Of a stretch of DNA of 33,028 bases, positions 11,051 to 26,982 are shown one piece after another (the first letter of the stretch is position 1; every line of letters starts with the position of its first letter). The DNA is from an uncultured Clostridia bacterium (GTDB taxonomy: Bacteria; Bacillota; Clostridia; Lachnospirales; Lachnospiraceae). The notes beneath the pieces are model-generated. The model had not been told where the DNA came from, searched no databases, and was given only the letters and a program-made list of their open reading frames with translations. Location: NCBI GenBank assembly GCA_947167565.1, contig CAMVIN010000011.1, positions 1 through 33,028 on the forward strand, read 5' to 3'. A program made the translations under genes and the position numbers.

Positions 11051-14000
11051 CTAATTATTCACCACATGATAGATATGCATCGACTTATCTTTTAGTTTTA
11101 GCATTACTGTATAAGTTGCTTTCCTGTCAATTGTGAGCTCACTGCCTGTCAATTGTTTTGACTTATATTTCATCTGTGCCCCCGTATAATCTCCCTTTGC
11201 GTAGTACACTTTGGCCTTTTTCGGGATATTGGTAAATGTCAGAGTGTCCGTGGTAAAGGATACATATCCGTTTTTCTTAAATTCCTTGCCATTTGCTCCA
11301 AAGTTTTCAATCTCCGGATACTCTTTAATCTGCACCAGATATGTGGAAAATACAAATGTCTTCTTGCTGACTCTTCCCACCTCATCCTCTGCTTGAACGG
11401 TTGCACTGTAAGAATCCTTTTTGCTGAAATCTATTTCTTTCGGAATATTTATTTCAACATCAATGTTCTCACTCTCACTCATATCATCTGTCACACGAAT
11501 ATGCGTCAAAAGTTCTGCTTTCATCTGAGCTATCTTATCGTCATCTGAGTCGCCGCTCAGTGTATCTAGATTGACACTGATATTTTCGCTCTGTACCACA
11601 ATTTCCGGTGCCTCGCCGTCAATTCCGGCTATTTCAATTTCTTTTGTAGACTTATTTCCCGCCTCATCTGTCGCTGTAATAGCATAGGTGCCGTTCTTTG
11701 TGATGACAAAAGATTTCTCTTCATCCGCACTCACTTCCTCATGCGTTCCATTGAGAAGAATTGTTCCCGCCTCATTGATTGAAACTTTGACGGTCTTCTC
11801 AGTTGCCACAGAGCTGTTAAAATCTGATACCGCAATGACCGGTGCCTCTTTATCTACATCAATCGTAATACTCTCCGTTGATCTAAGTTTTGCCATATTA
11901 TATGCTGTAACCTCAATTGTCGATGTTTCACTCACATAAAATGTTGCAGTTTTTGTAAGAACAATACTCTGTCCATCATCGGATTCTTCTGCCTGAATCT
12001 CACTCTCACTATATCCGGTTACCGGCACATTGAGATTGATGCTGATATTATCAGAATCTGTCGTGTCAGTCTTTGGAGTATAGTATTTTGCAAGCATTTT
12101 GTCTGTTATCGTCGCTGTCACCCTGTACTTGTTCTCACCAGCCATATACTCCTTCTTAAGGGCAATCTGTGGTGCACTCGAATCTGATTTAATTGCGTTT
12201 GTAGAAACCGTATACTCTGCCTGGCTACCGTTGCCTGCTGTCGCCACAAGCCGCACCGTATCATTTCGGTCAAATAAGATATAAGCTGTGTCGCCTTTGG
12301 CATAATATTTCAGATCAGATTCCTTATTATCCGTACCATATAACATCAATTTTTCTAATGTCATATTCGCTTTTATTTCTACAATCTGTGTTTGATTCCA
12401 ATCCGGATTTTCCGGAGTTCTTCCGCCTTCTGACTCGGTGAGTATCAGCGGTTCTCTGTCAACATTTACTTTCTTTGTCACAACATTGGCTATATTGCCC
12501 TTGGAGTCTTTCAACTTAAACGTAAAGTTTCCGGACTGGGTAAACATGTGATAGTACTCTTTTGTACCATCTGTCTTTTCCAACACCTGGACACCCTCTA
12601 AATCACGGAATGTAACGCCCTCTGCCAAATCAATATAGGCTTTCGTCCGTGTCAGACCGCAACGCACATATCTGACAGTTCCTGTGACATTGGCATCCTC
12701 GACAATATTTTTGACTGTAATCTTCTGTACCGTCGAATTGCCACTCACATCTGTCACGGTCACAGTCGCCGTGTCATTGTCTGTAAATTCTACCAACATC
12801 GGATCATTTTCATCTAATGATGCCTTTCCGTTATCGCTCTCCACTGAGATAGAAACCGGATTCAGTCCCCCATTCTCTCCAAAGTCAAGGGCCTGAACTT
12901 TTGCGAGAACTCTCGAAGTCGTAGTCGGGGCTGCCAGTATACTTTCATTTGCAGTGCCCTCTGTTGCGTTTTCCGTGACATTGATTACCTGCTCATCATT
13001 CTTCAGATAATAGTTCACACCAACAATTACCGGCGCAGTCTTATCATCCGAATCCGTTTCTCGCTCGCTGATACAAGAAACCGTGGCCGGAATTTCTTTT
13101 ATTACACCATTCGGATATTTCACCTTGAAATTATAAGTTCCATTTGTATAGAACGTGTGCATCTCGCCATCAGCCGAGAGTATCTCCGAACCATCCGGAA
13201 CGATAAGTTTTGCTGTGACCGGATCATACTGGTTTGATTCATCGGTATCTGTGAGAAGTCTTGAATACTCCACTTCATATTCATCCGAGATATCACTGAA
13301 TCCATCTACCACATAAGTCATCTCTTCTGTCTTGTACTCACCATCCTCATATCCGGTGTATACTTTAATTTTAAATGAGGTATTCGCCGTCACAACAGCT
13401 TTCGCATATTTGTACACACTGACGTCTTTTTCATCCGCATCTACTTCAACACCATCCTTCTCCAATGCCTCTTTCATAGAGACAATGCGAAGTGCATCCT
13501 CTGTAGGAGTGATGGTGTACCCATCTCCCGTCAGATTTTCAAACGTCATACCATATGCGTTTTTATAGCCGCTATCCATAACAACTATCACTTTGCCATC
13601 TTCCTCTGTGGTCTTTTCAATATCCGGCATCCATGATTTGTCAAAGCCCTCATAAGTAACTGTCTTTTCACCCTCATTGCCTAAAAGATCCTCATACTTG
13701 ATGGAATATTTACCACTTTTATCTGTGTTAAACCCAGTTGACAGAGTAAATTCCTGAGAATCCTTTGCACTGTCAACATCTTTAATTTTCAGCGGCTGAT
13801 TGAACTTCAATTTCTGCTTATTCGTGTTGTCCACCTGTTTGAATGTGATAATCTCACCATTCTGTGCAGGCACTTTGTAGCCGACCGTATAATAGGTATA
13901 AATTCCTGTTCCGTTTCCAAAGCGGAATGTCACTACATAATTCTCATCCTTTTCTGAAGCCGGAAGAAGAATATTCGCTTCCACTTTATAAGCACCTTCT

Positions 14001-17000
14001 GCATCCTCGCTCTCCGAGCATACCACATTGACGCAGCCGGTATCTTTTACTGTGTCACCGATTCCTGCCTTGGTCCATATATTAGAGCAGTCCATGCTCT
14101 CATCTGTAATCTTATTCAGTTTCTTATAAGTATCAGAACTCAGTGCATACTCTGCATAGACCTCATTTCCTGTACCCGGTTTCACCAAGAATTCCAGATG
14201 ATTATTCTTTGCCACTGTATCATCATTCTCGTAAACGATTTCCGGCAAATCCGTCTTCTCATAAATACTATTCTGCTCACTCACCACCCCGGTAAAAGCC
14301 GCATCGCCGGAATAGTTCTTTATCTCTGCCTCAACCGATTCATCAGCAGTCACTTTCTCAATTTCCGGTGCTTTCAACTCAGTGATATTGTCACTCAGTT
14401 TTATCGTAGTCTGGTTTCCAAGTTTGTCTTCAATCACAATTTTATCCTGAGACAGATCGGTCACAGTCTTCTCGTATTCAAAAATTGGTGTCTTATTTTC
14501 TGTTGTTGTCTCCTCCCCTGTCTCTTCATCCAGAGTCGTTACCGATTCCACAACATTAATATCCTCGGCAACAGACATATTATCGCTGGCGGTAAAGCAT
14601 CTCACATAAGTCTTATCATCCTTAGTAAATGTATAAAACTTCGCCTGTGGTGCCTCGTTGTCCACATATAATTTCTGCACCGCGTAATTACTCTCATTAC
14701 CGGCATAATTAATCATTTTCGCAATCAGATAAATTGTGCTGTCATCCGTCTCCGGAACATTCGCCTTAAAGGTATAGCAATTTACCCTCTTCTCCTCGCC
14801 CCACTCGAACATCTTCTTCGCGCGGTAGATTTTATTACACGAATCAGTGACATCATATTCATCAAAATCAGCGATTTTCTCCTCGACTCCCTCCTTAACA
14901 TTTCCGTAACTGTCCACCCATTCAGACGAGACAAAAGCATATCGAATCTTGCTCGACAGATACTCCTTCTCCCGGTCAGACATATCCGGCCAAATCTTAT
15001 CTTCATCGATAAAGGCACATTCAATTACAGAATTCGTGTCCGGGTCTGCCGATTCCTTACAAGACTTTACTGTCTTGGCAGATAATTCGTTAAATCGGTA
15101 AATCGTACAATCATAGGTATAGCCGTTCTCCCCGTCACCGTCCCAATCTTCACCTTCCTTGTACAGCATACGGTTTTGCTGATCGAAATAGCAGACCGGA
15201 TAATCAGAATCATAATGATTATATATTTTTAGGTAAGATTTTGCCTCCTCTGATTTATCATTTATTTTTTTAGTTCCATCCTGTTTTTCTATAAACTCCA
15301 ATTTGCCGGATGGAGCTTTCGTATCATAACCAAAAACCGCAAGCGGAATCTCACATGTAGTATAATCCAAAGTATCGTCATCACCCCATTCATAGTTATA
15401 ATGATCCGCACTCGTAATCATGATTTGATTGCCATCATCATCGGTCATGTTCGTTGCAATCTGCACAAACGCCCCGTAAAGCCCCTCCTCCGGAAGTGTG
15501 TAGTCTGTTATCTCATTGCCGTCTTCATCCGTTGATGTCGTCTCAATATAAGCATTGAGGTCAGCTGTGATTCCGAGACACGTTACATAATCCCCATTGC
15601 CCTTATGTCTCTCATATTTAACTTCAGAAAAATTACTTGGCAACGGAATTTTTCTCACACATTCTCCTGCTTTTCGATATTCCGTATTTCCGCTAAAATA
15701 AGAACCTTCAATTGTCTTCTCTACAGGATAAATATAGATATAGGAATTTGAGAAGTCAATATCCTTCTCCACATCCAAATATTCTGATACGTCATCCTGC
15801 AATACAAGTGTGACCGGTTCGTATCTCCCGCTCTGATAAGGTACTTGATAGTTATAATAATCATTGGAAGCGCAGTATCCGTTCAGCGAGTTATAGAACG
15901 GACAGAACTCCAAAAACAGATTATAGGTATTCGCATAAGAGGTATTATTATTCATCTGCATATCATAATAATACGCCGACCTCTTTACAAAACACTCATC
16001 CAAAATATTGACATTATAGTGTTCTCCAAAGAGGAACTGGTCAATCTCCTTCGTCCTGGCCGGTTCAAGCTCATTTCCATTTTCATCCTTGGAACGGGTC
16101 TTAACAGTCTTACCTTCTACAATCTTGTAATCATATTTTGTCACTACCTTCGTTCTCTCCGTATAAGCGCTAAAACCAATCTGATATGTCCAAAGCCAGG
16201 AAGCGCCGCCAAAGACATTAAAATCGTCCGGAGGACCAAGATTGATATAGGCAGAGGCAATCTCCTCCTCTGTCATCTCATTTGCCTTTTTCCCTCCAAT
16301 CTTTATGCTCCCATAAAGGCTCTCCGACACATATTTCAACGGAATTTTGGAAGAATCAAATATATACCCCTTTGCAATCACATCTGCCGGTATGGTTCCA
16401 TATATATAAGTTGGAAGATCACCTCTGATAAATCGGGCAGCGGCACTCCACCCGATGCAGACATTTTCTGCCGTGCTACCAAGATCAAATTTGTACTTAT
16501 TACTTCTCTTAAAGTTGCCGTTTGCCAAAAGCGATCCATCGACCGGCGCTATCGTTATTTTATCTTTAAGCGCATTAAACTCATCAGAATCTTTACTGAT
16601 AACCCCCTCATAAGTAACTCGTTCTACCTGGCCCAAATCCTTCACCACGGTTTTGTACCCCGGTGTGTCCGATGTATCCATTGTAAAATCAGTCTTCTCA
16701 AATTCATCACCGGATGACGCCTTATAGACAACTCCCCCATCAGCCTTATAGGTTATAAAGAGTGTTTTGTCAAATACTGAGCGGGCAGGAACTGTAGTAT
16801 ATACAAGTATCGTACCGGATGTGCTTCCACTGACACTACTTGCTCTGACCACAATCTCAAAATCTTTATCCTCCAGTGTATAGGACATAGTTCCATCATC
16901 TCCGGAGTCCTCATCCGCTTTCTGAACTTTTCCCTTTAATGAAAAATGATATCTGTAGTCCTCACTGTTGAAGTATTCATCCTCAAACTGAAAACAAGTA

Positions 17001-20000
17001 ATATTATCCTTTGTATAGTTATCATCTTTGCATAATGAGTCAAGATCATTCACAGTCACCGGGCGGTTTTCATTCGATGAAATCTCATTTATCTCTTCTG
17101 TCACTTCCGGATCCGCAAAATAAAGTTTGAAATCTTTCAAATCAAATTCTTTATTCATTTTATTGATAGAGATCATCTTGTACAGAGTTCCGTCCTCTTC
17201 CTTGTCTTTATCCGCATACATCTCCTCCACGACCGGTTCCTCCGACAGAGATCGCACGTTAAAACTTGCAAAATAAAGCGGCAGTTCCAGAGTTTTTTCG
17301 CATTTTGTCATATTCCCCGCACCGTCGTAGACACAGAACGTGATCGGGACACTGATTTTGTCAATTCCCGACTCGACAGCAGGATTGTCCTTATCCCTTT
17401 TAGCAGAAATGGTAATCGGTATACTGTTGCTTGAATTACTTGTCTGGATATTAATATTATTACAGGAGTACCCCTCTCCATTTTTTACTTTCTTTGAATC
17501 AATGACTCCATCACTATTCGAGACAGTAATCTCCACGTTTCCATTGACTTTTCCCACTTCCACACTGGCCTTATCGAGTCCTGAAATATCATAATAAAGC
17601 GAATAATTCTGATATCTTGATTTATCAGAAAAAGTGTATGTCACCTTAGACGTTGCGGTTCCAATCTCGTATTCCTTTGTATTATTAACACTTCCCTTTA
17701 CCGTAGGGGAATCCATATCCACTCCCACATAGGAACTCTGCAATCCGTTGGCTACTGTGGTTTTTTCCCCATTCTCGTCCTCCGTAAATACACCAAAATT
17801 CTTCCCTGTACTGCTCATCACTTTTCCGGTCTCACTCTTTATTGTCCCATTAAAATAGAGATAATTGATGCTATGGGCAAGATGCTCAGAAGCATCATAA
17901 TTCACTGCAAAAAAACCGCCGAGAAGACACAATTTATCAACATTAACTTTTGAAGCCACTTTCACCTTATACTTAATCACGGAATTATTCACAGACGAAT
18001 CGTCATTGATCTGAAGCATGGCCTTTTCCGAGTCAGATGTCGTGTCAATCTCATCGGACTCTCCATACTTCACAACACGATAAATCGTTTCACCGTTTTC
18101 ATCCGTACCTACTCTCACCTGACAGATATCAATAAATCCGCCGTTAGCCACTCGCTTAGTGGTCGCCACCCCATTATTATTCCTGCACTCATATATAACA
18201 GTCGGAAGGTTTTTCAATTCTACAGAACCGCCTGAATATTTTGTCCATCCGTCCGGATCGAACTCATCATTCGTATTCAGCGCGATCTGACTCTCATCGA
18301 ACACACGGTAATAGACCTCCAGATCCTCTCCGGACTCAGTTCCCGTTATCTTCATCGTCGCAGTTCCCTTATGGTTATCAGTCACTGTCGTTCCCTCGTC
18401 CACAAAAGAATTCGCCACATTCGAATCATCAACTTTCAATTCTGCATTGAGGGGAACCATCTTCGAATCGGAATAGGTTCCATCAGAAACGACTGTTCCG
18501 TCAAAATTTTTCACTGTCGAATCCGAGAGCAAATCTGTAAAATTCTTAAAATCATTCAAATAAAATTTCGGCGTTTCAAGTGTCTCATCCAACTTACAAT
18601 TAAACACCACATCAACATTTATATAATCTCCCGGCTTCACATATTTCTTGCCGTCCTCAGAAGTAATGACCACTTCTTTAATTGCCGGAGAAGATCCGTC
18701 ATAGACCGGAACCCTGTTTGCCGGTTTTCCATTCTGATCGGTTCCCTTAACTGACTGAAGCGGAAAACTTCTTGCTACAGCAACCCGATTCCCCGACAAA
18801 TCAGTAATAGCTCCCTTAAAAAAGTCTTCTTTCGAACTTCTTTTGTAATTAGGGTAAACACCCTTCAAGGATTTTTCCTGCTCCTCATAATAGGAATATG
18901 GCATCAGCCCTTTATAGAGCCACTCCATGTTGCCTGTTCTTGATTTTCTGTCCATCTGCTCTGACAGAGCAGCAATAGAAAAGGTTCTCGCCTTCCACTT
19001 GCTCATATCAATTTTAAAAATCAGACAACTATCTTTGCTGACATTTCCATTCAACTCTCCGCTCATAGTTCCGTAGTAATCCGCATAGATCGTCGAATCA
19101 CTACTGTTTTGTTCTACATTTGTAGAATCAGTTGTCGAGAGCGCCAGCCTCGGATACGCACGGAGACCATATGCTATATATTTATATTGCTGATACACTT
19201 TTTCCAGTGTCTCTGTATCAGAATAAATCATTTTGTTCAATTTTACGCTTCCATCAAACTGCATGACAACATACATATCATCAGCATCAGAAGGAGTATA
19301 TTTCAACGTAGCCTGTGGATCCCCGTTCTTTTCTATGTAAGTCGCCTGTGAACCGGCTGGCAACGGCATCTTTGTCAGATACACTTTCGACAGGGCAGCC
19401 TCCGGCTCTGTCATCGTACACTTGAGTTCAGACAGAGATGCCTTGCCTCCCATATTGGTTATTCTGATTATAATGTTTTCCCCTAAATCAGAAACTTTAA
19501 TCTCACCGGTCAGCGAGACAGCTTTCCCATAAGAGGTAATATACTTTGAATTTATTACTTTATCCTGAACACCGTCTGACGAATTTATAATATCAACCTT
19601 CAAAAAGATACTCTGGGCATAGCTGACATTCGCGCTAAACGCATACTGAATTGTTGAGAGATCCTTGTCCTTAAAATATTCTACATTTATAGTCTTCACA
19701 AATACGCCTTGAGAATCCATTGACAAAAGATTTGGCATTTTGTCATAGTTTACACCGCTTGTATTTGCCACATCAACACTCCCATTTGTGGCATCCATGT
19801 AGTTCTTGCTGCCACCCCCATTCGATACATAGGAAATAAGATCTGTGCCACCGGCACTCTTTATCAAATTGTTTTTTTCATTAATGTCACTCTTGAAACT
19901 GTTTTCCATTTTTTTTACCGTAATCATGTCATAGCCGTCTGAAAAGCCCATGTTACAGTAAAAACTGGAGTATAAACCATCTCTTGTCGTGATATACTCT

Positions 20001-20215
20001 TTAAGATTGTGAAGATGCATTTCCTGCTCTTCTTTTGGTTCAACACGATTGTGATAGAGCACAACATCCGGCTCAATCTGACTGAGTTCCGAAGCAGCAA
20101 AAACCTTTGCCACCTGATCGTGCACCTTAAAGAACACATTTTCCAAAAGACCAAGCGTATTGTAATCTAACACCATCAATAGCGCAAGGCAAAAAGCAAT
20201 AATCCTCTTTTTCAT
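11051..20215 (-). CDS. Giant secreted Ig-like multidomain protein B (3054 aa)
   Basis: This is the first gene of the exoprotein operon. GAGG lies about 8 nt before the ATG. The N-terminus (MKKRIIAFCLALLMVLDYN, then a further stretch up to VFAAS) resembles a signal peptide, but is longer than usual if cleavage is at the VFAA site near residue 41. Most of the protein is a chain of beta-sandwich Ig-like modules with the recurring signature DxxAPxI...I..NGTYAITATDEAGNKS (for example about 2785-2875) and many short acidic loops. A Tyr/Asn/Cys-rich block (about 1190-1510) interrupts the repeats. The C-terminal 90 residues form a distinct Lys/Tyr-rich beta segment, not LPXTG. No enzyme motif was recognised. 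A surface adhesin or matrix-like role, perhaps together with protein A, is inferred from size, secretion and architecture. Confidence 0.85.
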   Translation of the reverse strand: MKKRIIAFCLALLMVLDYNTLGLLENVFFKVHDQVAKVFAASELSQIEPDVVLYHNRVEPKEEQEMHLHNLKEYITTRDGLYSSFYCNMGFSDGYDMITVKKMENSFKSDINEKNNLIKSAGGTDLISYVSNGGGSKNYMDATNGSVDVANTSGVNYDKMPNLLSMDSQGVFVKTINVEYFKDKDLSTIQYAFSANVSYAQSIFLKVDIINSSDGVQDKVINSKYITSYGKAVSLTGEIKVSDLGENIIIRITNMGGKASLSELKCTMTEPEAALSKVYLTKMPLPAGSQATYIEKNGDPQATLKYTPSDADDMYVVMQFDGSVKLNKMIYSDTETLEKVYQQYKYIAYGLRAYPRLALSTTDSTNVEQNSSDSTIYADYYGTMSGELNGNVSKDSCLIFKIDMSKWKARTFSIAALSEQMDRKSRTGNMEWLYKGLMPYSYYEEQEKSLKGVYPNYKRSSKEDFFKGAITDLSGNRVAVARSFPLQSVKGTDQNGKPANRVPVYDGSSPAIKEVVITSEDGKKYVKPGDYINVDVVFNCKLDETLETPKFYLNDFKNFTDLLSDSTVKNFDGTVVSDGTYSDSKMVPLNAELKVDDSNVANSFVDEGTTVTDNHKGTATMKITGTESGEDLEVYYRVFDESQIALNTNDEFDPDGWTKYSGGSVELKNLPTVIYECRNNNGVATTKRVANGGFIDICQVRVGTDENGETIYRVVKYGESDEIDTTSDSEKAMLQINDDSSVNNSVIKYKVKVASKVNVDKLCLLGGFFAVNYDASEHLAHSINYLYFNGTIKSETGKVMSSTGKNFGVFTEDENGEKTTVANGLQSSYVGVDMDSPTVKGSVNNTKEYEIGTATSKVTYTFSDKSRYQNYSLYYDISGLDKASVEVGKVNGNVEITVSNSDGVIDSKKVKNGEGYSCNNINIQTSNSSNSIPITISAKRDKDNPAVESGIDKISVPITFCVYDGAGNMTKCEKTLELPLYFASFNVRSLSEEPVVEEMYADKDKEEDGTLYKMISINKMNKEFDLKDFKLYFADPEVTEEINEISSNENRPVTVNDLDSLCKDDNYTKDNITCFQFEDEYFNSEDYRYHFSLKGKVQKADEDSGDDGTMSYTLEDKDFEIVVRASSVSGSTSGTILVYTTVPARSVFDKTLFITYKADGGVVYKASSGDEFEKTDFTMDTSDTPGYKTVVKDLGQVERVTYEGVISKDSDEFNALKDKITIAPVDGSLLANGNFKRSNKYKFDLGSTAENVCIGWSAAARFIRGDLPTYIYGTIPADVIAKGYIFDSSKIPLKYVSESLYGSIKIGGKKANEMTEEEIASAYINLGPPDDFNVFGGASWLWTYQIGFSAYTERTKVVTKYDYKIVEGKTVKTRSKDENGNELEPARTKEIDQFLFGEHYNVNILDECFVKRSAYYYDMQMNNNTSYANTYNLFLEFCPFYNSLNGYCASNDYYNYQVPYQSGRYEPVTLVLQDDVSEYLDVEKDIDFSNSYIYIYPVEKTIEGSYFSGNTEYRKAGECVRKIPLPSNFSEVKYERHKGNGDYVTCLGITADLNAYIETTSTDEDGNEITDYTLPEEGLYGAFVQIATNMTDDDGNQIMITSADHYNYEWGDDDTLDYTTCEIPLAVFGYDTKAPSGKLEFIEKQDGTKKINDKSEEAKSYLKIYNHYDSDYPVCYFDQQNRMLYKEGEDWDGDGENGYTYDCTIYRFNELSAKTVKSCKESADPDTNSVIECAFIDEDKIWPDMSDREKEYLSSKIRYAFVSSEWVDSYGNVKEGVEEKIADFDEYDVTDSCNKIYRAKKMFEWGEEKRVNCYTFKANVPETDDSTIYLIAKMINYAGNESNYAVQKLYVDNEAPQAKFYTFTKDDKTYVRCFTASDNMSVAEDINVVESVTTLDEETGEETTTENKTPIFEYEKTVTDLSQDKIVIEDKLGNQTTIKLSDNITELKAPEIEKVTADESVEAEIKNYSGDAAFTGVVSEQNSIYEKTDLPEIVYENDDTVAKNNHLEFLVKPGTGNEVYAEYALSSDTYKKLNKITDESMDCSNIWTKAGIGDTVKDTGCVNVVCSESEDAEGAYKVEANILLPASEKDENYVVTFRFGNGTGIYTYYTVGYKVPAQNGEIITFKQVDNTNKQKLKFNQPLKIKDVDSAKDSQEFTLSTGFNTDKSGKYSIKYEDLLGNEGEKTVTYEGFDKSWMPDIEKTTEEDGKVIVVMDSGYKNAYGMTFENLTGDGYTITPTEDALRIVSMKEALEKDGVEVDADEKDVSVYKYAKAVVTANTSFKIKVYTGYEDGEYKTEEMTYVVDGFSDISDEYEVEYSRLLTDTDESNQYDPVTAKLIVPDGSEILSADGEMHTFYTNGTYNFKVKYPNGVIKEIPATVSCISERETDSDDKTAPVIVGVNYYLKNDEQVINVTENATEGTANESILAAPTTTSRVLAKVQALDFGENGGLNPVSISVESDNGKASLDENDPMLVEFTDNDTATVTVTDVSGNSTVQKITVKNIVEDANVTGTVRYVRCGLTRTKAYIDLAEGVTFRDLEGVQVLEKTDGTKEYYHMFTQSGNFTFKLKDSKGNIANVVTKKVNVDREPLILTESEGGRTPENPDWNQTQIVEIKANMTLEKLMLYGTDNKESDLKYYAKGDTAYILFDRNDTVRLVATAGNGSQAEYTVSTNAIKSDSSAPQIALKKEYMAGENKYRVTATITDKMLAKYYTPKTDTTDSDNISINLNVPVTGYSESEIQAEESDDGQSIVLTKTATFYVSETSTIEVTAYNMAKLRSTESITIDVDKEAPVIAVSDFNSSVATEKTVKVSINEAGTILLNGTHEEVSADEEKSFVITKNGTYAITATDEAGNKSTKEIEIAGIDGEAPEIVVQSENISVNLDTLSGDSDDDKIAQMKAELLTHIRVTDDMSESENIDVEINIPKEIDFSKKDSYSATVQAEDEVGRVSKKTFVFSTYLVQIKEYPEIENFGANGKEFKKNGYVSFTTDTLTFTNIPKKAKVYYAKGDYTGAQMKYKSKQLTGSELTIDRKATYTVMLKLKDKSMHIYHVVNN

Positions 20216-20349: not shown

Positions 20350-20381
20350 AAAAAAACGGACATGCCAAACTGACACATCCG
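20350..20381 (-). terminator. Rho-independent terminator after the lipoprotein gene
   Basis: CGGATGTG pairs with CATGTCCG (8 bp including two G-U pairs), with a 9-nt loop and seven T residues directly after the stem. It starts about 20 bp past the lipoprotein stop codon. Confidence 0.85.
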
Positions 20382-20400
20382 CTTTCACAGGGGTATTATT

Positions 20401-21015
20401 TTAAAATTGTGGTTCGGTACCTTCTGAAATATTGTTTGCTGCTTCAACAAACTTATCCTTTTCAACCTCTCCAACGAGAGCTGCTCCTACATCACCCATG
20501 TCGAGCTGATAACCACCTTCAGCTTCTTCTACGCCCATGGTAAGCGATGTACCATTGTTCTGATCAGAAATAGTGATTGTGCCATCTCCATTATTTGTGC
20601 ACTCACCTACCCACGAACCGCTCTCTGCGCTCTCAACATTGTAGAACATAGCCATTCCAAATGTACCCTCATTTCCAAATGCGAGGTACATGTAAGTCCC
20701 CTGATCGTCAGTGATTCCGGCATAGAACTTAGACAAATTATCTGCCCATGATGTGTCTGATCCGGTACTACTCGAATCTTCTGCATCGCTTGATTCTTCT
20801 ACATTACCTGAATCTTCTGCATCGCTTGATTCTTCTGCATCGCTTGATTCTTCTACATCGCTTGATTCTTCCTGATCAGCCGAATTCGAATCGTCTACTG
20901 ATGATTCCTGAGATGTTTTCTGTGAAGACGTTGTAGTCTTCTCATCACCACATCCAGTCAATGCGGATGCCACCAATGCTGATGTCAATAATACTGTCAA
21001 AAATTTTCTTTTCAT
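20401..21015 (-). CDS. Lipoprotein with acidic hexapeptide repeats
   Basis: The 204-aa product starts at the ATG at 21015, which has GGAGGG 7 nt upstream; the frame runs 20 codons further but without a signal. A type II signal peptide is clear: MKRKFLTVLLTSALVASALTGC, with lipobox LTGC and Cys22 as the lipidated residue. A Ser/Thr/Asp-rich linker (23-48), six ESSDAE-type hexapeptides (49-84) and a globular C-terminal domain of about 115 residues follow. That domain is rich in Gly, Thr and short beta segments, with GDGTITISDQNNGTSLTM as a typical stretch. The product should sit on the outer face of the membrane, with the repeat as a flexible stalk. The domain was not recognised. The gene has its own promoter with the same palindrome found upstream of the C11-peptidase operon, and is the most membrane-distal, exposed element of that cluster. 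Confidence 0.85.
   Translation of the reverse strand: MKRKFLTVLLTSALVASALTGCGDEKTTTSSQKTSQESSVDDSNSADQEESSDVEESSDAEESSDAEDSGNVEESSDAEDSSSTGSDTSWADNLSKFYAGITDDQGTYMYLAFGNEGTFGMAMFYNVESAESGSWVGECTNNGDGTITISDQNNGTSLTMGVEEAEGGYQLDMGDVGAALVGEVEKDKFVEAANNISEGTEPQF
20764..20871 (-). repeat. 18-bp tandem repeat encoding (E-E/D-S-S-D-A/V) x 6
   Basis: Six consecutive 18-bp units lie inside the lipoprotein gene and encode EESSDV, EESSDA (twice), EDSGNV, EESSDA and EDSSST. Inner units are nearly identical at the nucleotide level and edge units have diverged, as expected for a slippage-prone minisatellite encoding a stalk. Confidence 0.8.
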
Positions 21016-21066: not shown

Positions 21067-21072
21067 ATTATA
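21067..21072 (-). promoter_or_regulatory. -10 element of the lipoprotein promoter
   Basis: A perfect TATAAT is found about 55 bp upstream of the lipoprotein start. The position 17 bp upstream reads TACTAT, far from TTGACA, so the promoter probably needs an activator bound at the palindrome at 21095-21112. Confidence 0.6.
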
Positions 21073-21094: not shown

Positions 21095-21112
21095 AGTACC
21101 CCTAGGGCTACT
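21095..21112. promoter_or_regulatory. Palindromic operator, copy 1 (lipoprotein promoter)
   Basis: AGTACCCCTAGGGCTACT is an 18-bp near-perfect dyad, one base pair of each arm being mismatched. It ends 22 bp before the TATAAT, so its centre falls near -43. It matches the palindrome at 26954-26971 at 16 of 18 positions. The half-sites TACCCCT and TAGCCCT resemble the NarL-family heptamer TACYYMT. Confidence 0.65.
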
Positions 21113-21125
21113 TTACGTGATTTTG

Positions 21126-21389
21126 TTATTCGTATACATTACTTTTTTCTCCCTCTTTTAAGAACTCACCATAGTCCTCCACAAACTGAGCAAGCCGAAA
21201 TCCAGCTAACAATTCATCAAAGCCAGATAGTTCTGATACTTTATTCAGTAATTCCTCATCATCTTTTACACCCTGTTCCATAAGTCTGACAATCTGCTCA
21301 TCTTCTTCTGCAATTTCTTTTCTCTCATCCTTAGAACAAAGCCATAATCCATTGCTTTTTTCGACTCTCACATCCGACTTCCACTCCAT
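21126..21389 (-). CDS. Hypothetical 87-aa protein, co-transcribed with the LuxR-type regulator
   Basis: The start MEWKSDVRVEK (ATG at 21389) has AAGGAGG 8 nt upstream; a further ATG at 21413 lacks a site. There is no signal peptide or membrane segment, so the product is cytoplasmic. The sequence is acidic and appears mostly helical after a short beta start (VRVEKSNGLWLCSK), ending LAQFVEDYGEFLKEG. The order of strands followed by helices, with the pattern EDEQIVRLMEQGVKDDEELL, is loosely like small winged-helix folds such as PqqD-type peptide-recognition elements, but no family assignment can be made. It begins 35 bp after the regulator's stop codon, so it may modulate that regulator. No radical SAM or other modifying enzyme is adjacent to support a peptide-modification role. 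Confidence 0.7.
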   Translation of the reverse strand: MEWKSDVRVEKSNGLWLCSKDERKEIAEEDEQIVRLMEQGVKDDEELLNKVSELSGFDELLAGFRLAQFVEDYGEFLKEGEKSNVYE

Positions 21390-21424
21390 CTTATGCACCT
21401 CCTTACTCGCCATAAATATCTTTA

Positions 21425-23812
21425 TTAATTGACACTTCCCCGATGCACCAGCCCTAACTGAATTGCCCTTCGCTCTGCCTCTGCCCGGTTCTTTGCCCCC
21501 AGCTTTTTATATATATTTCTATTGTGCTTCTTTAAGCCATCATAGGATATTGCACATTGTTCACAAATATCTCCGGTTGTCATTCCTGTACAGAGCATCG
21601 CAAGTATCTCTTCCTCTCTCTTTGTCAGCGATACAATAGTTTCCGGTATATAAATCAAATAATCCGGATATGAAACTGCCATTTTTCCTGTTTCATTATA
21701 TATTTCATCCAAATAATCTGCTGATATTCCATCAAATGCCTTTGTCTCTCTACATTCTCTGAGAAGAGGAAGAACTGCCTGCCCCTCCATAGAAATAACA
21801 CGAACAAAATGGTATTCCGCTGCCTTCTTCACCGCAGATATCAAGTGTTCTCTCCAGTGTTCATCTCCCATGCGATACAAAATAATACTCCTAAGCACTT
21901 CGTTTTCCATCCAATAAAAATACCGCTGATATGAATAAAAATATTCTGTAAGGAAATTAGCAAGAGAAAGAGCTTCTTCAAGCCTGTTTTCTGCAATTAA
22001 GCACCTTAATTTTGTCAGTTGTCTGTAACGATCCAAAATACAAAATTCAATCTGAACATCCGGTATTTTATCTACAAACTCATGGACATTTTCCCCCGTA
22101 CCTTCAAACAGGGAAATCCATACACAGAACGCTTCCATCTTGGGCAGCAGATGATCTGCCGCTCCGCAATGTGCTCTAACTTTTTCCTCAAATGCCCGAT
22201 AGACTCTTTTAGCTGATGCAATCTGTCCGGCAACAATATGCTGCCTTACCTGAATTCCGACAGACACAAAACACATCTCTATTTTCCCACCATGAGATGC
22301 CGCTTCATAACCGGCACAACACCTCGTCATCACTTCATAAGGTGATATTGTTGCTTTCTCAAATCCACTCTCCGCAAGTGCTATTGTCACAAGACCATTT
22401 CCATATTTTCCAACCACAACCTCTATCGGACGGCTCATGAATTTAGCTATCTGGGTATCGCTTTTTGACCACTCACAAAAATCCAATCCGCCATTCATAA
22501 TAGAAGGCAGGTTTCCCGTCACACTCATTTCCGGAAGGAAAACATCCCCCTTGGTAATCATGACAAAGGAATTTCGCAGGATACGCAAAATTCCTTTTGT
22601 CCCTCTATGCGGAAGTGTTATATCAAGATATGCCAATCTTGTTCTAGCTTCACGCCTGAGTTCTCTTGGATTTTCCTTATTTTTTTCAAAGTTTACCAAC
22701 TCCTGATACCACTTTTCTGATTGCTGAGGCTGAAGAAGCAAATCATAGAGCATACTCATACCTGCCATCAAAACAGGACTCTCTAATACCTGTTCCTTCG
22801 GCAATTCAAAATAATATTCTTTCGTCTCCACATAATGCCCGGTTCCCGGATGAGTATTGGCATTCCTCACAAGCAATTCCTTAATCCGCTGAACAGCACC
22901 GGCTTTTCTGTAATATTCCAATGCCTTGGGAATATCCCCATGCATTTCATAATAATTGGCTCCCCGCCTGTAATTTTCAATGACGGCCTCTTTCGACCAC
23001 AAGATACTTTGTTTCCAACAAAAAAACCCTCTTACCTCTTTCCGGATGGATAAGAATCCTCCCTCACAATAGTTCAACTGATGCATTGTTTCCCGGCAGT
23101 ATTCTATGATTTTACTGATATTATCATTCCCCATCAGGTACTCTGCCATCTGTTCTGTAAATTCTTCGTACTGACAAACACAAAGAGCAAATTTGATAAA
23201 CAAATCATTCCACTGCTCATAAACAACACCGTCCCAAAGATAATAAATATCACGCCAGACCGCTTCATACATTTCTTCTGAATATCTCTTTCCATTCTCC
23301 ATTCGCTTCACATAATACATAAGCGCCGGTGGATACCCCTGCGAAGCCAATGTTACCAATTCAATATCTTTGGGATCAATTTCTACTTCACAACTCAAAA
23401 ACAATTTTTTGACTTCTTCCTTACCCAGTACAAAATCTTGTTCTACAATTCGAACGAATCCCAACTGCATTTCCTCGCCGACAAGATATTTGGGCACAGC
23501 CCCTCTCGTCGCCATAACAATCTGCCGCCCATCGGAGTGCAGCAAATCCTTTAAATACTGAATAGATTCCTGCTCTTTCAGCCACTGCAAATCTTCAATT
23601 ATTATAATATTAGCGCGGATGGAAGAAATGGGCGGCCTTCGTGTAATTCTCCCATCTTCGCAAAAAAGAATTTCTGTTTTTTTTCTTCGATAATAATATC
23701 CTATTGCTGCACTTTTTCCCCAGCCATAAGCTGCCGTCATAATAACAGGACTAAATGTCTCTTCCGCTTTTTTTAACTTATTATAAACTGCCGGTATTTT
23801 AATATAATCCAC
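21425..23812 (-). CDS. STAND-type LuxR family transcriptional regulator (MalT-like)
   Basis: The 795-aa product has an N-terminal P-loop NTPase: Walker A AAYGWGKS (about 27-34) and Walker B NIIIIEDLQW (about 68-77). A long helical TPR-like middle (about 270-720) and a C-terminal LuxR/GerE helix-turn-helix (about 728-795) follow. The last has the hallmarks SLTKREEEILAMLCTGMTTGDIC and LKKHNRNIYKKLGAKNRAEA. This is the layout of MalT-like activators, in which ligand and ATP binding drive oligomerisation and promoter activation. The start is taken as GTG at 23812 with AGGAGG 6 nt upstream; the TTG two codons earlier directly abuts the AGGAGG and cannot be used well. It lies 48 bp after the C11 peptidase gene with no terminator, so it probably belongs to that operon. 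It is the natural candidate to bind the two palindromes in this cluster. The ligand is unknown. Confidence 0.9.
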   Translation of the reverse strand: MDYIKIPAVYNKLKKAEETFSPVIMTAAYGWGKSAAIGYYYRRKKTEILFCEDGRITRRPPISSIRANIIIIEDLQWLKEQESIQYLKDLLHSDGRQIVMATRGAVPKYLVGEEMQLGFVRIVEQDFVLGKEEVKKLFLSCEVEIDPKDIELVTLASQGYPPALMYYVKRMENGKRYSEEMYEAVWRDIYYLWDGVVYEQWNDLFIKFALCVCQYEEFTEQMAEYLMGNDNISKIIEYCRETMHQLNYCEGGFLSIRKEVRGFFCWKQSILWSKEAVIENYRRGANYYEMHGDIPKALEYYRKAGAVQRIKELLVRNANTHPGTGHYVETKEYYFELPKEQVLESPVLMAGMSMLYDLLLQPQQSEKWYQELVNFEKNKENPRELRREARTRLAYLDITLPHRGTKGILRILRNSFVMITKGDVFLPEMSVTGNLPSIMNGGLDFCEWSKSDTQIAKFMSRPIEVVVGKYGNGLVTIALAESGFEKATISPYEVMTRCCAGYEAASHGGKIEMCFVSVGIQVRQHIVAGQIASAKRVYRAFEEKVRAHCGAADHLLPKMEAFCVWISLFEGTGENVHEFVDKIPDVQIEFCILDRYRQLTKLRCLIAENRLEEALSLANFLTEYFYSYQRYFYWMENEVLRSIILYRMGDEHWREHLISAVKKAAEYHFVRVISMEGQAVLPLLRECRETKAFDGISADYLDEIYNETGKMAVSYPDYLIYIPETIVSLTKREEEILAMLCTGMTTGDICEQCAISYDGLKKHNRNIYKKLGAKNRAEAERRAIQLGLVHRGSVN

Positions 23813-23860
23813 AACCAACCTCCTGGCACTCGATTATCCTGTAAATACTATAATATCTTA

Positions 23861-26152
23861 TTACTCGTCATAGATGCTCGTCTTCCCATTTTTATCTACC
23901 CGGAGTGTCACATAATCCGTCAACAGATAATCGTGAAATACATCATCTATGCGGAATGAATACATATAATCTCCAGCTGCTAATAAATCATAATTTATTT
24001 CAAGAGAGGCTTTCCTTAATTCATAGCCTTCGCCCTCCCATTCTTTCTCCTCTGAATTTTCATCCTCTAACGAAAAACTTGTATAACAAGGGGTAACAAT
24101 ATCACCCTTTTTTAATTTGATAATATTTTTGGCCGCAGCACCATTCTCATCAATGCCATCCCACGCCCCCTCTACCACGACTTTTCCGTCTTTGTCCTGT
24201 ATCATACGAAGATTTGTTTCCTCTCCGTTGAGTAGAATTGGAGAAGTATAAACCACCTCATTATCATCTACCGAAACAATATACGTGGCAAGATTTTGTC
24301 CATCAGGAAGCGATAACCAATATCCGTCAAAATAATCCTTAATCTGCCCCTTATCCCAGTCCACATCCACATCATACGTTTCACCAAGTTCCAATGCTTC
24401 CTTACCATTTTCTGTCACTTCATAAATTTGAGCACTAACATCCTCTGTGTTTTTCAATCCGTTATCATCCAATGTAAATCCGAAAATCCCGTCTGAATCA
24501 ACTGCCGGTTCAGATGCAAATGTAATCTTCTTACTCTCTCCGGTCTCTTTATAGTCATCTACATAATTCCAATGTTCATTTTTCTTTGTGTTACTGCGGT
24601 AACACTCATCTTCTTCATCATATTCATAGTCACAGAACCAGCACCAGATTTCTTCTTCATCCGAACTACTGTTATCGCCAATAGCCGCTGACAGTGCATC
24701 ATCACTTGCGTTGTCAGCCGAACTACAGCTGTCATACCAGCCACAGGAATCACCACCGCTCCACCAGTAATCCTCATCATAAGAATCTGTATTTCCTTCA
24801 TTGCAACTGCCACAATCCTGTCTGTCAACAAAGGACAGATAATACGGACTCACACATACTGTACTGAATGTAGACAACTCATCCGATTCTTGTATACAAA
24901 GCGGATAATACACAGATAATCCTGAAGACTTTTTGTGATTTTTTCCAGACACTTTGTAAGCGACTACCTTTTCAAGCTGGGAAGAAACAGCATCGGCTCC
25001 CTCGGCGTAGGACCTACACCCTGTCACAAGTCCGCCCAGATCAACCATATTTGTATATCCCTCGGACTTATTGTTTCCACCGAAGTTATCTGCCTTTTCT
25101 ATTTTTCTGCAAATAGATGATAAGACAGATGTGTCCGCACTGGTTTCATACATATTTTTTGCAAACGTATTAAAAGCTTGCAGCAAGGAATCCATCTGTG
25201 ATAAATCAATTACTGACAAAGTTACAATGTCACCGTCACCGATTTTTTCACAGCCTTTTTTGAAACTGTCACACACTTCCTTCCCCAGTTCCAAACCATT
25301 AGTACTTGGATTTTGGGCAAGAAAATTACCAATAGATGTGTAATCCCAGCCACACCCCGGCTCGGATTCCTCCGATGCATACATATAATTCGCATAGGAA
25401 GCAAGCACGTTCGCCGCCTCCATAGAGCCCATCAGGCAGGCATCAAATCCAACAAATTCAAATTTGCCGGACATCTTTGAATATGCACTCAATAAAGCAC
25501 TATCCACATCGCGGAGAGAGAGGGACTTCATATTATCGGTCTCGTCATAGCATATGCCGCCGATACTGCCGCCTCCATGATTCCATAATATCACACCCAT
25601 GTGCTCAGAACTGTAATTATTCACGCCCCATTTGAGGAATTTTGCAAGCGTATTGCTTTTTGCCATGCTTGCCTCTTTTACTTCATCCACTAATTCAATA
25701 TCTTCATTCTGAACGACAAAGCGCTGCAATTTCTTTTTGTTAACCGCCTCATTATTCCACTCAGAAGCCCCTCCTGTCTGCACTACAAACCTCACTTTAT
25801 CACTGGCAGATGCCTCCATCATTTCCACCATATCATTTGTAGCCGCTCCGTACTGAGATTCCAAATCAGAACCACAGAGATAAACAAAAATAGTCCATAT
25901 TCCATCTTTTTTTATTTCTTCACCGCCGGCCTGTACCGGACGGGATACAGTGAGATCACCGGTTTCCCGATCAACCGTGAGCATACTTTGACTATAATCA
26001 CTGCCGTCTGCCAATGTTGCCATCGCTGTCTTTGATTTTCCCTTTTTTTCTTTCTCGCCTTCATCTGTGTCTAAAAATATCATAAGCAAGAGAAATCCTG
26101 CCAAAATCACGCCAAAAACAGACGCTATTGTGATTATAATTTTTTTTGCCAT
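23861..26152 (-). CDS. Membrane-anchored clostripain-like (C11 family) cysteine peptidase
   Basis: The 763-aa product has an N-terminal membrane anchor or uncleaved signal (about 4-27), then a C11 catalytic domain starting at IWTIFVYLCGSDLES. The catalytic pair is visible: His192 in LWNHGGG and Cys239 in GFDACLMGSMEA. C11 enzymes are caspase-clan peptidases that commonly cut after Arg or Lys; the specificity of this one is unknown. After the catalytic core (about 445) comes an unusual Cys/Trp/acidic segment (447-517, seven Cys). A C-terminal beta-rich region of about 240 residues (540-763) follows, resembling an extracellular accessory domain. GAGGA lies 6 nt before the ATG. The gene starts 28 bp after the three-TM protein gene and precedes the LuxR-type regulator. 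The active site should face outward, where it could process surface proteins. Confidence 0.92.
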   Translation of the reverse strand: MAKKIIITIASVFGVILAGFLLLMIFLDTDEGEKEKKGKSKTAMATLADGSDYSQSMLTVDRETGDLTVSRPVQAGGEEIKKDGIWTIFVYLCGSDLESQYGAATNDMVEMMEASASDKVRFVVQTGGASEWNNEAVNKKKLQRFVVQNEDIELVDEVKEASMAKSNTLAKFLKWGVNNYSSEHMGVILWNHGGGSIGGICYDETDNMKSLSLRDVDSALLSAYSKMSGKFEFVGFDACLMGSMEAANVLASYANYMYASEESEPGCGWDYTSIGNFLAQNPSTNGLELGKEVCDSFKKGCEKIGDGDIVTLSVIDLSQMDSLLQAFNTFAKNMYETSADTSVLSSICRKIEKADNFGGNNKSEGYTNMVDLGGLVTGCRSYAEGADAVSSQLEKVVAYKVSGKNHKKSSGLSVYYPLCIQESDELSTFSTVCVSPYYLSFVDRQDCGSCNEGNTDSYDEDYWWSGGDSCGWYDSCSSADNASDDALSAAIGDNSSSDEEEIWCWFCDYEYDEEDECYRSNTKKNEHWNYVDDYKETGESKKITFASEPAVDSDGIFGFTLDDNGLKNTEDVSAQIYEVTENGKEALELGETYDVDVDWDKGQIKDYFDGYWLSLPDGQNLATYIVSVDDNEVVYTSPILLNGEETNLRMIQDKDGKVVVEGAWDGIDENGAAAKNIIKLKKGDIVTPCYTSFSLEDENSEEKEWEGEGYELRKASLEINYDLLAAGDYMYSFRIDDVFHDYLLTDYVTLRVDKNGKTSIYDE
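24602..24814 (-). other. Cys/Trp/acidic insert within the C11 peptidase
   Basis: Residues 447-517 contain Cys447, Cys450, Cys470, Cys476, Cys504, Cys507 and Cys517 in two CxxC pairs plus singles, among many Asp/Glu/Ser and Trp (short runs DYWWSGGDSCGW and EEIWCWFCDYEYDEEDEC). It lies between the catalytic core and the C-terminal beta region and reads like a metal-binding or disulfide-linked, partly disordered module. Confidence 0.6.
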
Positions 26153-26180
26153 TATGTATCCTCACTTTCCATCATTTCAT

Positions 26181-26858
26181 TTAACTTATAAAATATCCCG
26201 AAAAACTAAACCCTGTCGGCATCGGTATTGTCAACATAAATATCGTTGCACCTATCAAAAATACCACCGATATCCCAAAAACCACAATACGGTTAGGCAA
26301 TCTCTTGAATATACCTACGATACCGAGTAAAAAAAGCACCAATGAGAAAATAACTGTCACAAGTCCATATCGGTCGCCGCTTGTGTTGTCATTTTGTCCC
26401 TGTTTAAGCAGTTCCTGCGATTCAGCCAAAAGATTGTTTGCCTCCTCGTAATAACTGTCAATATATCCTTCCTTTTCAAATGGACTTGCATCCTTTTGTT
26501 TATCTGCCCACTGAATCGCCTCATAAAAGTTCTCTGAACAATTATCCGCAATTAATGTATCGATTTTATCCAGAATCAAATCCGCCTCGTCTTTGTCACC
26601 TTTTTCCTCAGCCATCTCCGCATCAAAACGATATTCCATAATGGTATTCCAAGTAATCATATCCTGCATTAACTGTTGCGATGCCTCATTGTACATGGAA
26701 TTTCCTTCTGCTGCCACATTATTGCTCTTTGTATAATTTGTCGCCTGATTTCCGCCGTGCAGCGAGCCTATCCAAGTTGCCCATGCAGTCAAGAGAGCCG
26801 TAATTCCGAGAAAAATAGCAATTAAAATTTCAAGTCTTTTTTCTGCTTTTTCTTCCAT
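26181..26858 (-). CDS. Three-TM membrane protein of unknown function, first gene of the C11 operon
   Basis: The 225-aa product has a TM helix near the N-terminus (about 9-30), a 130-residue soluble helical region, and two C-terminal TM helices (about 165-184 and 191-212). It resembles the general layout of DUF4337-like proteins, but I cannot assign a family with confidence. With a short charged N-terminus (MEEKAEKR) inside, the central domain would face outward and the C-terminus would also lie outside. The ribosome-binding site AAGGAGG is 13 nt from the ATG, longer than usual; an in-frame TAA just upstream rules out an earlier start. The gene is transcribed from the palindrome-bearing promoter at 26924-26971 and is followed 28 bp later by the C11 peptidase. 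It could be the peptidase's membrane partner or substrate. Confidence 0.8.
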   Translation of the reverse strand: MEEKAEKRLEILIAIFLGITALLTAWATWIGSLHGGNQATNYTKSNNVAAEGNSMYNEASQQLMQDMITWNTIMEYRFDAEMAEEKGDKDEADLILDKIDTLIADNCSENFYEAIQWADKQKDASPFEKEGYIDSYYEEANNLLAESQELLKQGQNDNTSGDRYGLVTVIFSLVLFLLGIVGIFKRLPNRIVVFGISVVFLIGATIFMLTIPMPTGFSFSGYFIS

Positions 26859-26923
26859 TGATTAATTATATCCTCCTTATAATGTGTTTTTTATTTATAT
26901 ATGACACCTCTCATGTGTACTCA

Positions 26924-26929
26924 ATTATA
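26924..26929 (-). promoter_or_regulatory. -10 element of the membrane protein/C11 peptidase/LuxR operon
   Basis: A perfect TATAAT lies about 65 bp upstream of the first start codon. The expected -35 position reads CCTTTA, so there is no consensus -35. This matches the activator-dependent arrangement of the lipoprotein promoter. Confidence 0.6.
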
Positions 26930-26953
26930 TCTGAGGACTTTTAATAAAGGAAG

Positions 26954-26971
26954 TACCCCTATGGGTACTCC
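26954..26971. promoter_or_regulatory. Palindromic operator, copy 2 (C11 operon promoter)
   Basis: AGTACCCCTATGGGTACT has perfect 7-bp arms (AGTACCC/GGGTACT) around CTAT. It ends 24 bp before the TATAAT, with its centre near -45, and is 12 bp past the MATE stop codon. The inverted heptamers TACCCCT and TACCCAT both fit the NarL-family consensus TACYYMT. It might also weakly terminate MATE transcripts as a hairpin, though it lacks a clean T-run. Confidence 0.65.
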
Positions 26972-26982
26972 AACTGTTTTCT

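Follow-up and report, generated by a model that had tools for sequence, protein, structure and literature searches.

The window, i.e., the whole analysed stretch of 33,028 nucleotides from an uncultured Clostridia bacterium of the Lachnospiraceae (GenBank assembly GCA_947167565.1, contig CAMVIN010000011.1, positions 1 to 33,028 of the forward strand), contains two copies of an 18-bp palindrome (dyad) at two promoters, P1 and P2; both copies are real, and together they have the appearance of functional operators of the STAND/MalT-like LuxR regulator encoded between them. P2 precedes an operon in the order mem225, C11 peptidase, LuxR regulator, orf95 (26858-21126; gaps of 28, 42, and 11 bp), and P1 precedes a lipoprotein gene (20401-21015), which is the arrangement described in an earlier note on this DNA. 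The features of the locus are the following:

26975..26981, minus strand: P2 upstream A-element GAAAACA, predicted subsite for the C-terminal domain of the RNA polymerase alpha subunit (alpha-CTD); its pattern is common to 16/16 regulator-locus promoters
26952..26969, minus strand: P2 dyad, minus-strand letters AGTACCCATAGGGGTACT, predicted regulator site at -52..-35, kept in orthologues
26924..26929, minus strand: P2 -10 hexamer TATAAT, 22 bp from the P2 dyad
26181..26858, minus strand: mem225, membrane protein, first P2 gene, without Pfam match
23861..26152, minus strand: C11 (clostripain-family) peptidase, second gene, with an N-terminal hydrophobic stretch (PF03415, E 5.7e-44)
21425..23818, minus strand: STAND/MalT-like LuxR regulator, third gene, with a C-terminal GerE helix-turn-helix (HTH; GerE E 2e-13)
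21126..21413, minus strand: orf95, small protein directly 3' of the regulator and conserved there, without Pfam match
21118..21124, minus strand: P1 upstream A-element AAAATCA, from the promoter layout comparison
21095..21112, minus strand: P1 dyad, minus-strand letters AGTAGCCCTAGGGGTACT
21067..21072, minus strand: P1 -10 hexamer TATAAT, 22 bp from the P1 dyad
20401..21015, minus strand: lipoprotein gene, predicted P1 target, with a lipobox-like LTGC (our reading)
20350..20382, minus strand: hairpin and T7 run 3' of the lipoprotein gene, probable terminator (region z-score -2.15)

In the window, the dyads read AGTACCCCTAGGGCTACT (21095-21112) and AGTACCCCTATGGGTACT (26952-26969) and are identical at 16/18 positions, as the earlier note had reported; its coordinates for the second copy (26954-26971) were corrected to 2 bp lower. 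With this correction, both dyads are followed by a perfect TATAAT exactly 22 bp downstream (of the spacings given before, 22 bp stands and 24 bp does not), both cover approximately -52..-35, and both are centred at ~-43.5 instead of near -43 and -45. The -35 hexamers at 17-bp spacing are TACTAT (P1) and TTCCTT (P2) and are indeed non-consensus. When the window was dinucleotide-shuffled 100 times, no dyad match at up to 3 mismatches arose. Throughout the 3.08 Mb draft genome, dyads with 0-1 mismatches were detected at P1 and P2 only and no third place was found at 0-2 mismatches; a 2-mismatch match at window position 18362 falls within an open reading frame (ORF) of 3054 aa. Two further genome matches (C10 and C58) were listed, each with 3 mismatches, and the C10 match, the only one of the two with flanks inspected, lacks a -10 at this distance of 22 bp. 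With as many as 3 mismatches allowed, the genome yielded 3 forward and 3 reverse matches, which does not exceed the backwards-read control (7 and 10). A genome-wide regulon was rejected, as there is no third good site and the C10 and C58 matches carry 3 mismatches.

The half-sites were compared with the heptamer TACYYMT, used here as the NarL consensus as stated in the earlier note. Both halves fit at P2 (TACCCAT, TACCCCT) and one half fits at P1 (TACCCCT), while the other P1 half (TAGCCCT) has 1 mismatch. The half-site TACCCCT is identical to the half-site of the engineered narG -89 site TACCCCTAAAGGGGTA (PMC4549865). NarL sites have a 7-2-7 arrangement (PMC4549865), whereas the window half-sites stand as 7-0-7 and the dyad reaches 18 bp through its outer base pairs; the half-sites abut in P1, P2, and the dyads of the layout test described below. 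The NarL arrangement was therefore rejected on account of the 0-bp spacer in place of 2 bp.

The regulator carries a GerE domain at residues 730-783 (PF00196, E 2e-13) and a Walker A-like AAYGWGKS near the N-terminus, in which G32, G34, and K35 are invariant in 9 sequences; no Pfam NTPase match was obtained for the N-terminus at E 0.01. The match to TPR_MalT is weak (24.3 bits, E 2.2e-5, below the curated cut-off of 45), and the score for the NCBIfam MalT equivalog NF003420 is 45.6 bits, where 537 would be required; the regulator is not MalT itself. In a profile search of solved structures, mainly GerE-type DNA-binding domains were matched, and no whole MalT-like protein was among the regulator matches. 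MalT of Escherichia coli carries a GerE-type HTH. Five GerE-domain matches were found in the genome, one inside the window (the regulator) and four elsewhere, so that its description as the only GerE protein here is right for the window. Nearest kin of the regulator are mostly from Lachnospiraceae, with one each from Clostridiales (98% identical), Oribacterium, Butyrivibrio, and Bacillota. The orf95 product was encoded beside the regulator in 10/27 loci examined (38-52% identity) and is a possible partner or anti-activator.

Promoter layout was determined for 18 dyads chosen by dyad letters alone (16 at regulator loci and two strays) at offsets of 8 to 39 bp, leaving out L027 and L047, the former being a 98% window copy and the latter sharing its promoter with L032. 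A -10 match was located at 22 bp in 14/18 dyads, at 23 bp in 1, at 39 bp in 5, and at any other offset in 0 or 1, with a background rate of 85/2509. The A-element AAAARCA sits 6-12 bp upstream of the dyad (-64..-58); in all 16 regulator-locus promoters, AAA at -11..-9 and C at -7 relative to the dyad are invariant, and A at -6 is present in 15/16, with AAANC[AG] occurring at 12/2496 nearby positions. The proximal alpha-CTD subsite has the consensus AAAAAARNR placed at -46..-38 (PMC2801614). AAAARCA fits such a pattern but stands further upstream, and the A-element is a predicted alpha-CTD subsite.

This layout, with a site next to or over the -35 region and in fixed helical phase to the -10, is of class II type, the poor -35 having been scored for P1 and P2 only. 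Comparable geometry is known from Mor at the phage Mu promoter Pm, where a dyad likewise centred at -43.5 replaces the -35 and an alpha-subunit subsite lies just upstream (PMC4390567); Mor is, however, a different protein with a 16-bp element, and its UP subsite is at -57..-52, the window's candidate subsite being at ~-64..-58. In Actinoplanes sp. SE50/110, a MalT-like LuxR activator likewise uses a palindrome overlapping the -35 region (PMC7567727). This palindrome ends, on its 3' side, 34.4 +/- 1.0 bases from the start of transcription and was found in front of 17 start sites, all in a single genomic region (PMC7567727). Since the window dyad lies against or over the -35 region, the regulator could alternatively bind it as a repressor that blocks RNA polymerase there (negative autoregulation). 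We regard this as very unlikely, because P1 and P2 lack a -35 consensus, a repressor would need neither the conserved 22-bp spacing nor the upstream A-element, and the proteins of similar geometry, Mor (PMC4390567) and Actinoplanes MalT (PMC7567727), are activators.

The regulator is patchily distributed, being present in 43/397 genomes of the family (E 1e-40 or better) and in 6/39 genomes of the genus (E 1e-100 or better). Searching the 397 family genomes for exact RGTAVCCNYARGGGTACT yielded 10 places in 8 genomes, and 8/10 of these dyads sit within ~4 kb of a regulator orthologue, in 6 genomes. Dyad genomes thus carry the regulator in 6/8 cases, versus 43/397 overall (hypergeometric P 2.8e-5), and the random scatter that the earlier note had named as a counter-sign was not observed. 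When 25 regulator-bearing genomes were searched entirely for the dyad at up to 1 mismatch plus TANNNT at 22 bp, 7 had a match, and every match was at the regulator locus.

Ten loci were found via the regulator, one being the 98%-identical copy (L027) and the rest being 54-60% identical. Class-A dyads (position weight matrix (PWM) score of at least 24) were called in 7/10 of these loci, namely L027, L028 (two), L029, L030, L032, L033 (two), and L035, and were not found by PWM in L031, L034 (~110 bp of upstream DNA only), and L036; the absence from orthologous promoters that the earlier note had named as a counter-sign was thus not observed. Other orthologues with a class-A dyad are in G118 (two), G141, G172 (two), and G368. 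In G172 (L077:4477-8726), a DDE transposase ORF splits the regulator just before the DNA-binding domain, with both dyad promoters kept. In G346 (L082:11477-13960 and 3127-5832), the regulator is adjoined by a BTAD-domain protein and by a second LuxR-type protein, distantly related at 19% identity.

Regulator promoters were also scored by a core criterion (at least 9/10 core letters, a -10 at 22/23 bp, and location within 600 bp upstream of the regulator). Such a promoter was found in 17/49 loci, compared with 0.02/49 per round in a shuffle control (largest 1/49 in 100 rounds) and 0 in the backwards-read control. The 245 "control" upstream regions belong to regulator neighbours and are thus not neutral; their 11 matches are mostly candidate targets, one L033 site having been counted for two ORFs. 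Sites at the regulator's own promoter reach regulators of only ~30% identity, with forms near ACTAYCC TTTT GGNTAGT. The window's own site is 3.15 kb upstream of the regulator, heading its operon. A similarity by chance or descent, in which one promoter was recently duplicated and the two window copies have no function, would suit the presence of just two copies in the genome. We give this practically no credence, as P1 and P2 agree in dyad, -10, and A-element but differ in the dyad-to--10 spacer, these shared parts recur at other loci, and the own-promoter counts and the layout test contradict it.

An order-wide search of 295 genomes, 10 of which had the regulator, delivered six new loci once loci from the earlier sets were removed, together with L156, which duplicates L035 in promoter and helix letters. 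By the own-promoter criterion, a site was present in 2/6, L157 (AGTACCCTTTGGGGTACT) and L158 (AGTACCCTTAAGGGTACT), both of the Lys type defined below (GTA..TAC), with the -10 at 22 bp and the dyad ~120 bp upstream of the regulator; this amounts to 2/3 of the Lys-type new loci. Two of the three Tyr-type new loci, L153 and L154, have upstream CTA..TAG dyads with TATAAT at 21 bp, i.e., outside the criterion; L153 has only 8/10 core letters, and the open frame of L154 is without the first part of the regulator.

Recognition helices were taken from an alignment of 54 regulator rows, with L109 and L148 (partial, helix unread) outside the helix counts and the L077 helix taken from its separate piece; L109, L148, and L152 were left out of the tree, and the sites of L029, L031, L075, and L081 were entered manually into tree and helix table from separate searches. 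Position 764 is occupied by Lys in 17 rows, by Tyr/Phe in 33, and by Thr in 2, with 2 rows unread. Canonical sites are present in 12 Lys rows, and dyad position 17 is C in all 17/17 of these sites, compared with G in 19/19 Tyr/Phe rows with a site; dyad position 2 is G in 16/17 Lys-type sites and C in 19/19 Tyr/Phe-type sites. The core score permitted either letter at these contrasted positions. The dyad letters vary with the recognition helix, GTA..TAC occurring with Lys764 and CTA..TAG with Tyr/Phe764.

Two tips of the Lys clade have private helices, L075 (SYDTVKKYNSR) and L031 (TANGLKKHNYN). In L075, an altered dyad (TGTCCACCTGGGTGGAAT) precedes a PH-domain gene and a C11 peptidase, and a second one (TGTCCACCTGGGGGGAAT) lies ~60 bp upstream of the regulator, so that the switch is visible at both the regulator's own promoter and the C11 target promoter. 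In L031, an altered dyad (ATTACACTTGAGTGTAAT) ends ~290 bp upstream of the regulator; in our reading, it has a TACAAT at a distance of 21 bp. Both L075 operators retain the A-element and the ATAC/GTAC flank, and the L031 operator retains 10/12 upstream letters and ATAC; as the flanks were kept while the dyads changed, the domain that reads the dyad probably does not read the flank. Flank-guided scores of the L075 and L031 sites were 27, 24, and 25, versus best scores of 18-21 in L034, L036, L078, L080, and L081. Including these altered forms, 14/17 Lys-type rows have a canonical or altered dyad.

These results also bear on whether the dyad is the site of a different DNA-binding protein, e.g., one of the four other GerE proteins, whose gene lies elsewhere and which controls the locus from outside. 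The five GerE-domain matches in the genome and the resemblance of the half-site to that of NarL, another GerE-type protein, would accommodate such a protein; we nevertheless consider it unlikely, since the dyad tracks the regulator by genome and by position, lies upstream of the regulator gene in 17/49 loci, and changes with the regulator helix in two lineages.

Lipoproteins (our reading) come first after class-A or near class-A sites in the window, L029, L033, L074, L077, L079, and L089, and C11 peptidases or C11-holding operons follow sites in the window, L030, and L032. A thioredoxin/AhpC-like membrane protein heads the regulator operons of L077 (above the Pfam cut-off) and L074 (below it); other first genes encode a secreted-looking protein (L028) or the regulator itself (L028, L033, L035). 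From this list, surface proteins and the regulator itself emerge as the recurring theme. The gene heading the C11 operon with the altered operator encodes a bacterial PH-domain protein (L075:2549-2932). In the window, two adjacent giant, secreted-looking ORFs follow on the minus strand (2552-11029 and 11051-20215; 2825 and 3054 aa); neither had a Pfam match at E 0.01, and the 3054-aa ORF was also without an NCBIfam match. They were rejected as P1 targets on account of the terminator-like hairpin in between, which with its T run probably ends the P1 unit ahead of the 3054-aa ORF; equally good folds were obtained in 8/200 shuffles, and the terminator scan did not list the hairpin.

The sequence shows the sites and their spacing, their conservation and linkage with the regulator, and a change of dyad wherever the helix was altered in L075 and L031; on this basis, the dyads are, in our judgement, very probably operators of the regulator at 21425-23818, acting as a local, positively autoregulated activator of class II type. 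In its active form (for MalT, multimer assembly is driven by inducer and nucleotide exchange), the regulator would bind the 18-bp dyad, with its GerE domains occupying -52..-35 as a symmetric pair. The bound regulator would stand in for the missing -35 element and recruit RNA polymerase, helped by the A-tract element at -64..-58, which is probably bound by alpha-CTD. It would thereby turn on the operon that encodes it together with the membrane protein, the C11 peptidase, and orf95, as well as the neighbouring lipoprotein gene, resulting in a two-promoter, local, positively autoregulated surface-protein regulon. Binding, the alpha-CTD role, and an inducer are inferred; the autoregulated regulon proposed in the earlier note is supported by comparative genomics, and its positive sign is suggested by promoter position.

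Several observations weigh against this interpretation. Two exact dyads are in genomes without a regulator match (G225, and G061, which is 60% complete); neither a -10 at 22 bp, nor an AAANCA element, nor a gene start by scanning was found for them, and both were rejected as true sites for this reason. The raw motif count lies below the backwards-read control (11 vs 31 match rows by our count), so the signal lies in location and context, not in raw abundance. In the search of 25 genomes, no class-A site was seen in 18 other regulator-bearing genomes, in 15/18 of which the regulator is <44% identical. No site was found in 3/17 Lys-type rows (L034, cut by the contig end, L036, and L078), in 14/33 Tyr/Phe-type rows, or in either Thr-type row, and the start of the L076 target gene was not found by scanning, the contig end being ~570 bp away. 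Among the new loci, L155 (Tyr type) has a weaker dyad, which carries A at position 17 and lacks a good -10, and no dyad was found upstream in L161 (Lys type). The contrast of Lys with Tyr/Phe is a single change on the tree, where the Lys type forms one clade; it counts once, and a reading as many independent events was rejected. Finally, the altered dyads came from a second, looser, flank-guided search (one had already been found earlier), and their coincidence with altered helices, of chance 1/91 in 14 rows, was judged after the fact.

With regard to known systems, E. coli MalT is a STAND ATPase with a superhelical-repeat sensor and an activator with a box near -35 (PMC4381067, PMC7567727), but its boxes are GGGGA(T/G)GAGG and bound cooperatively by multimers (PMC4381067, PMC7567727), whereas the window protein has the weak TPR_MalT match only. 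The Actinoplanes MalT palindrome is TCATCC-5nt-GGATGA (PMC7567727), compared with AGTACCC-N4-GGGTACT in the window, where, unlike in Actinoplanes, the dyad stands at two local promoters, one of them heading the regulator's operon, and the target genes are others. The layout in the window is close to those of Actinoplanes MalT and of Mor at Pm, with an operator of its own. Eggerthella lenta likewise has locally encoded LuxR-type activators, which, however, contain 10-12 membrane helices (PMC9734109). Within literature coverage that lacked most subscription papers, no paper containing any of six motif strings and no operator for the regulator family were found; by title and abstract, nothing relevant appeared on this regulator type in Lachnospiraceae, and at most analogues elsewhere.

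The operator and helix switches across relatives are of greater interest than the two window copies alone. In this regulator family (Lachnospiraceae and others of the order), operators may have been rewired in nature under a recognition code that can be read, with a near-fixed chassis (A-element, 18-bp dyad, 22 +/- 1 bp, -10) and a joint switching of helix (Lys764 or Tyr/Phe, residues 765-768) and dyad letters; we see the arguments for and against this reading as a whole as evenly balanced. The relatives constitute a natural series for working out the choice of DNA by GerE-type helices. A near-fixed layout with letters that follow the helix would allow the regulons of the regulators in 43/397 family genomes to be read from the genomes, and, if the code is true, a few residues would predict the operator, and hence the regulon, of many orphan LuxR-type regulators.

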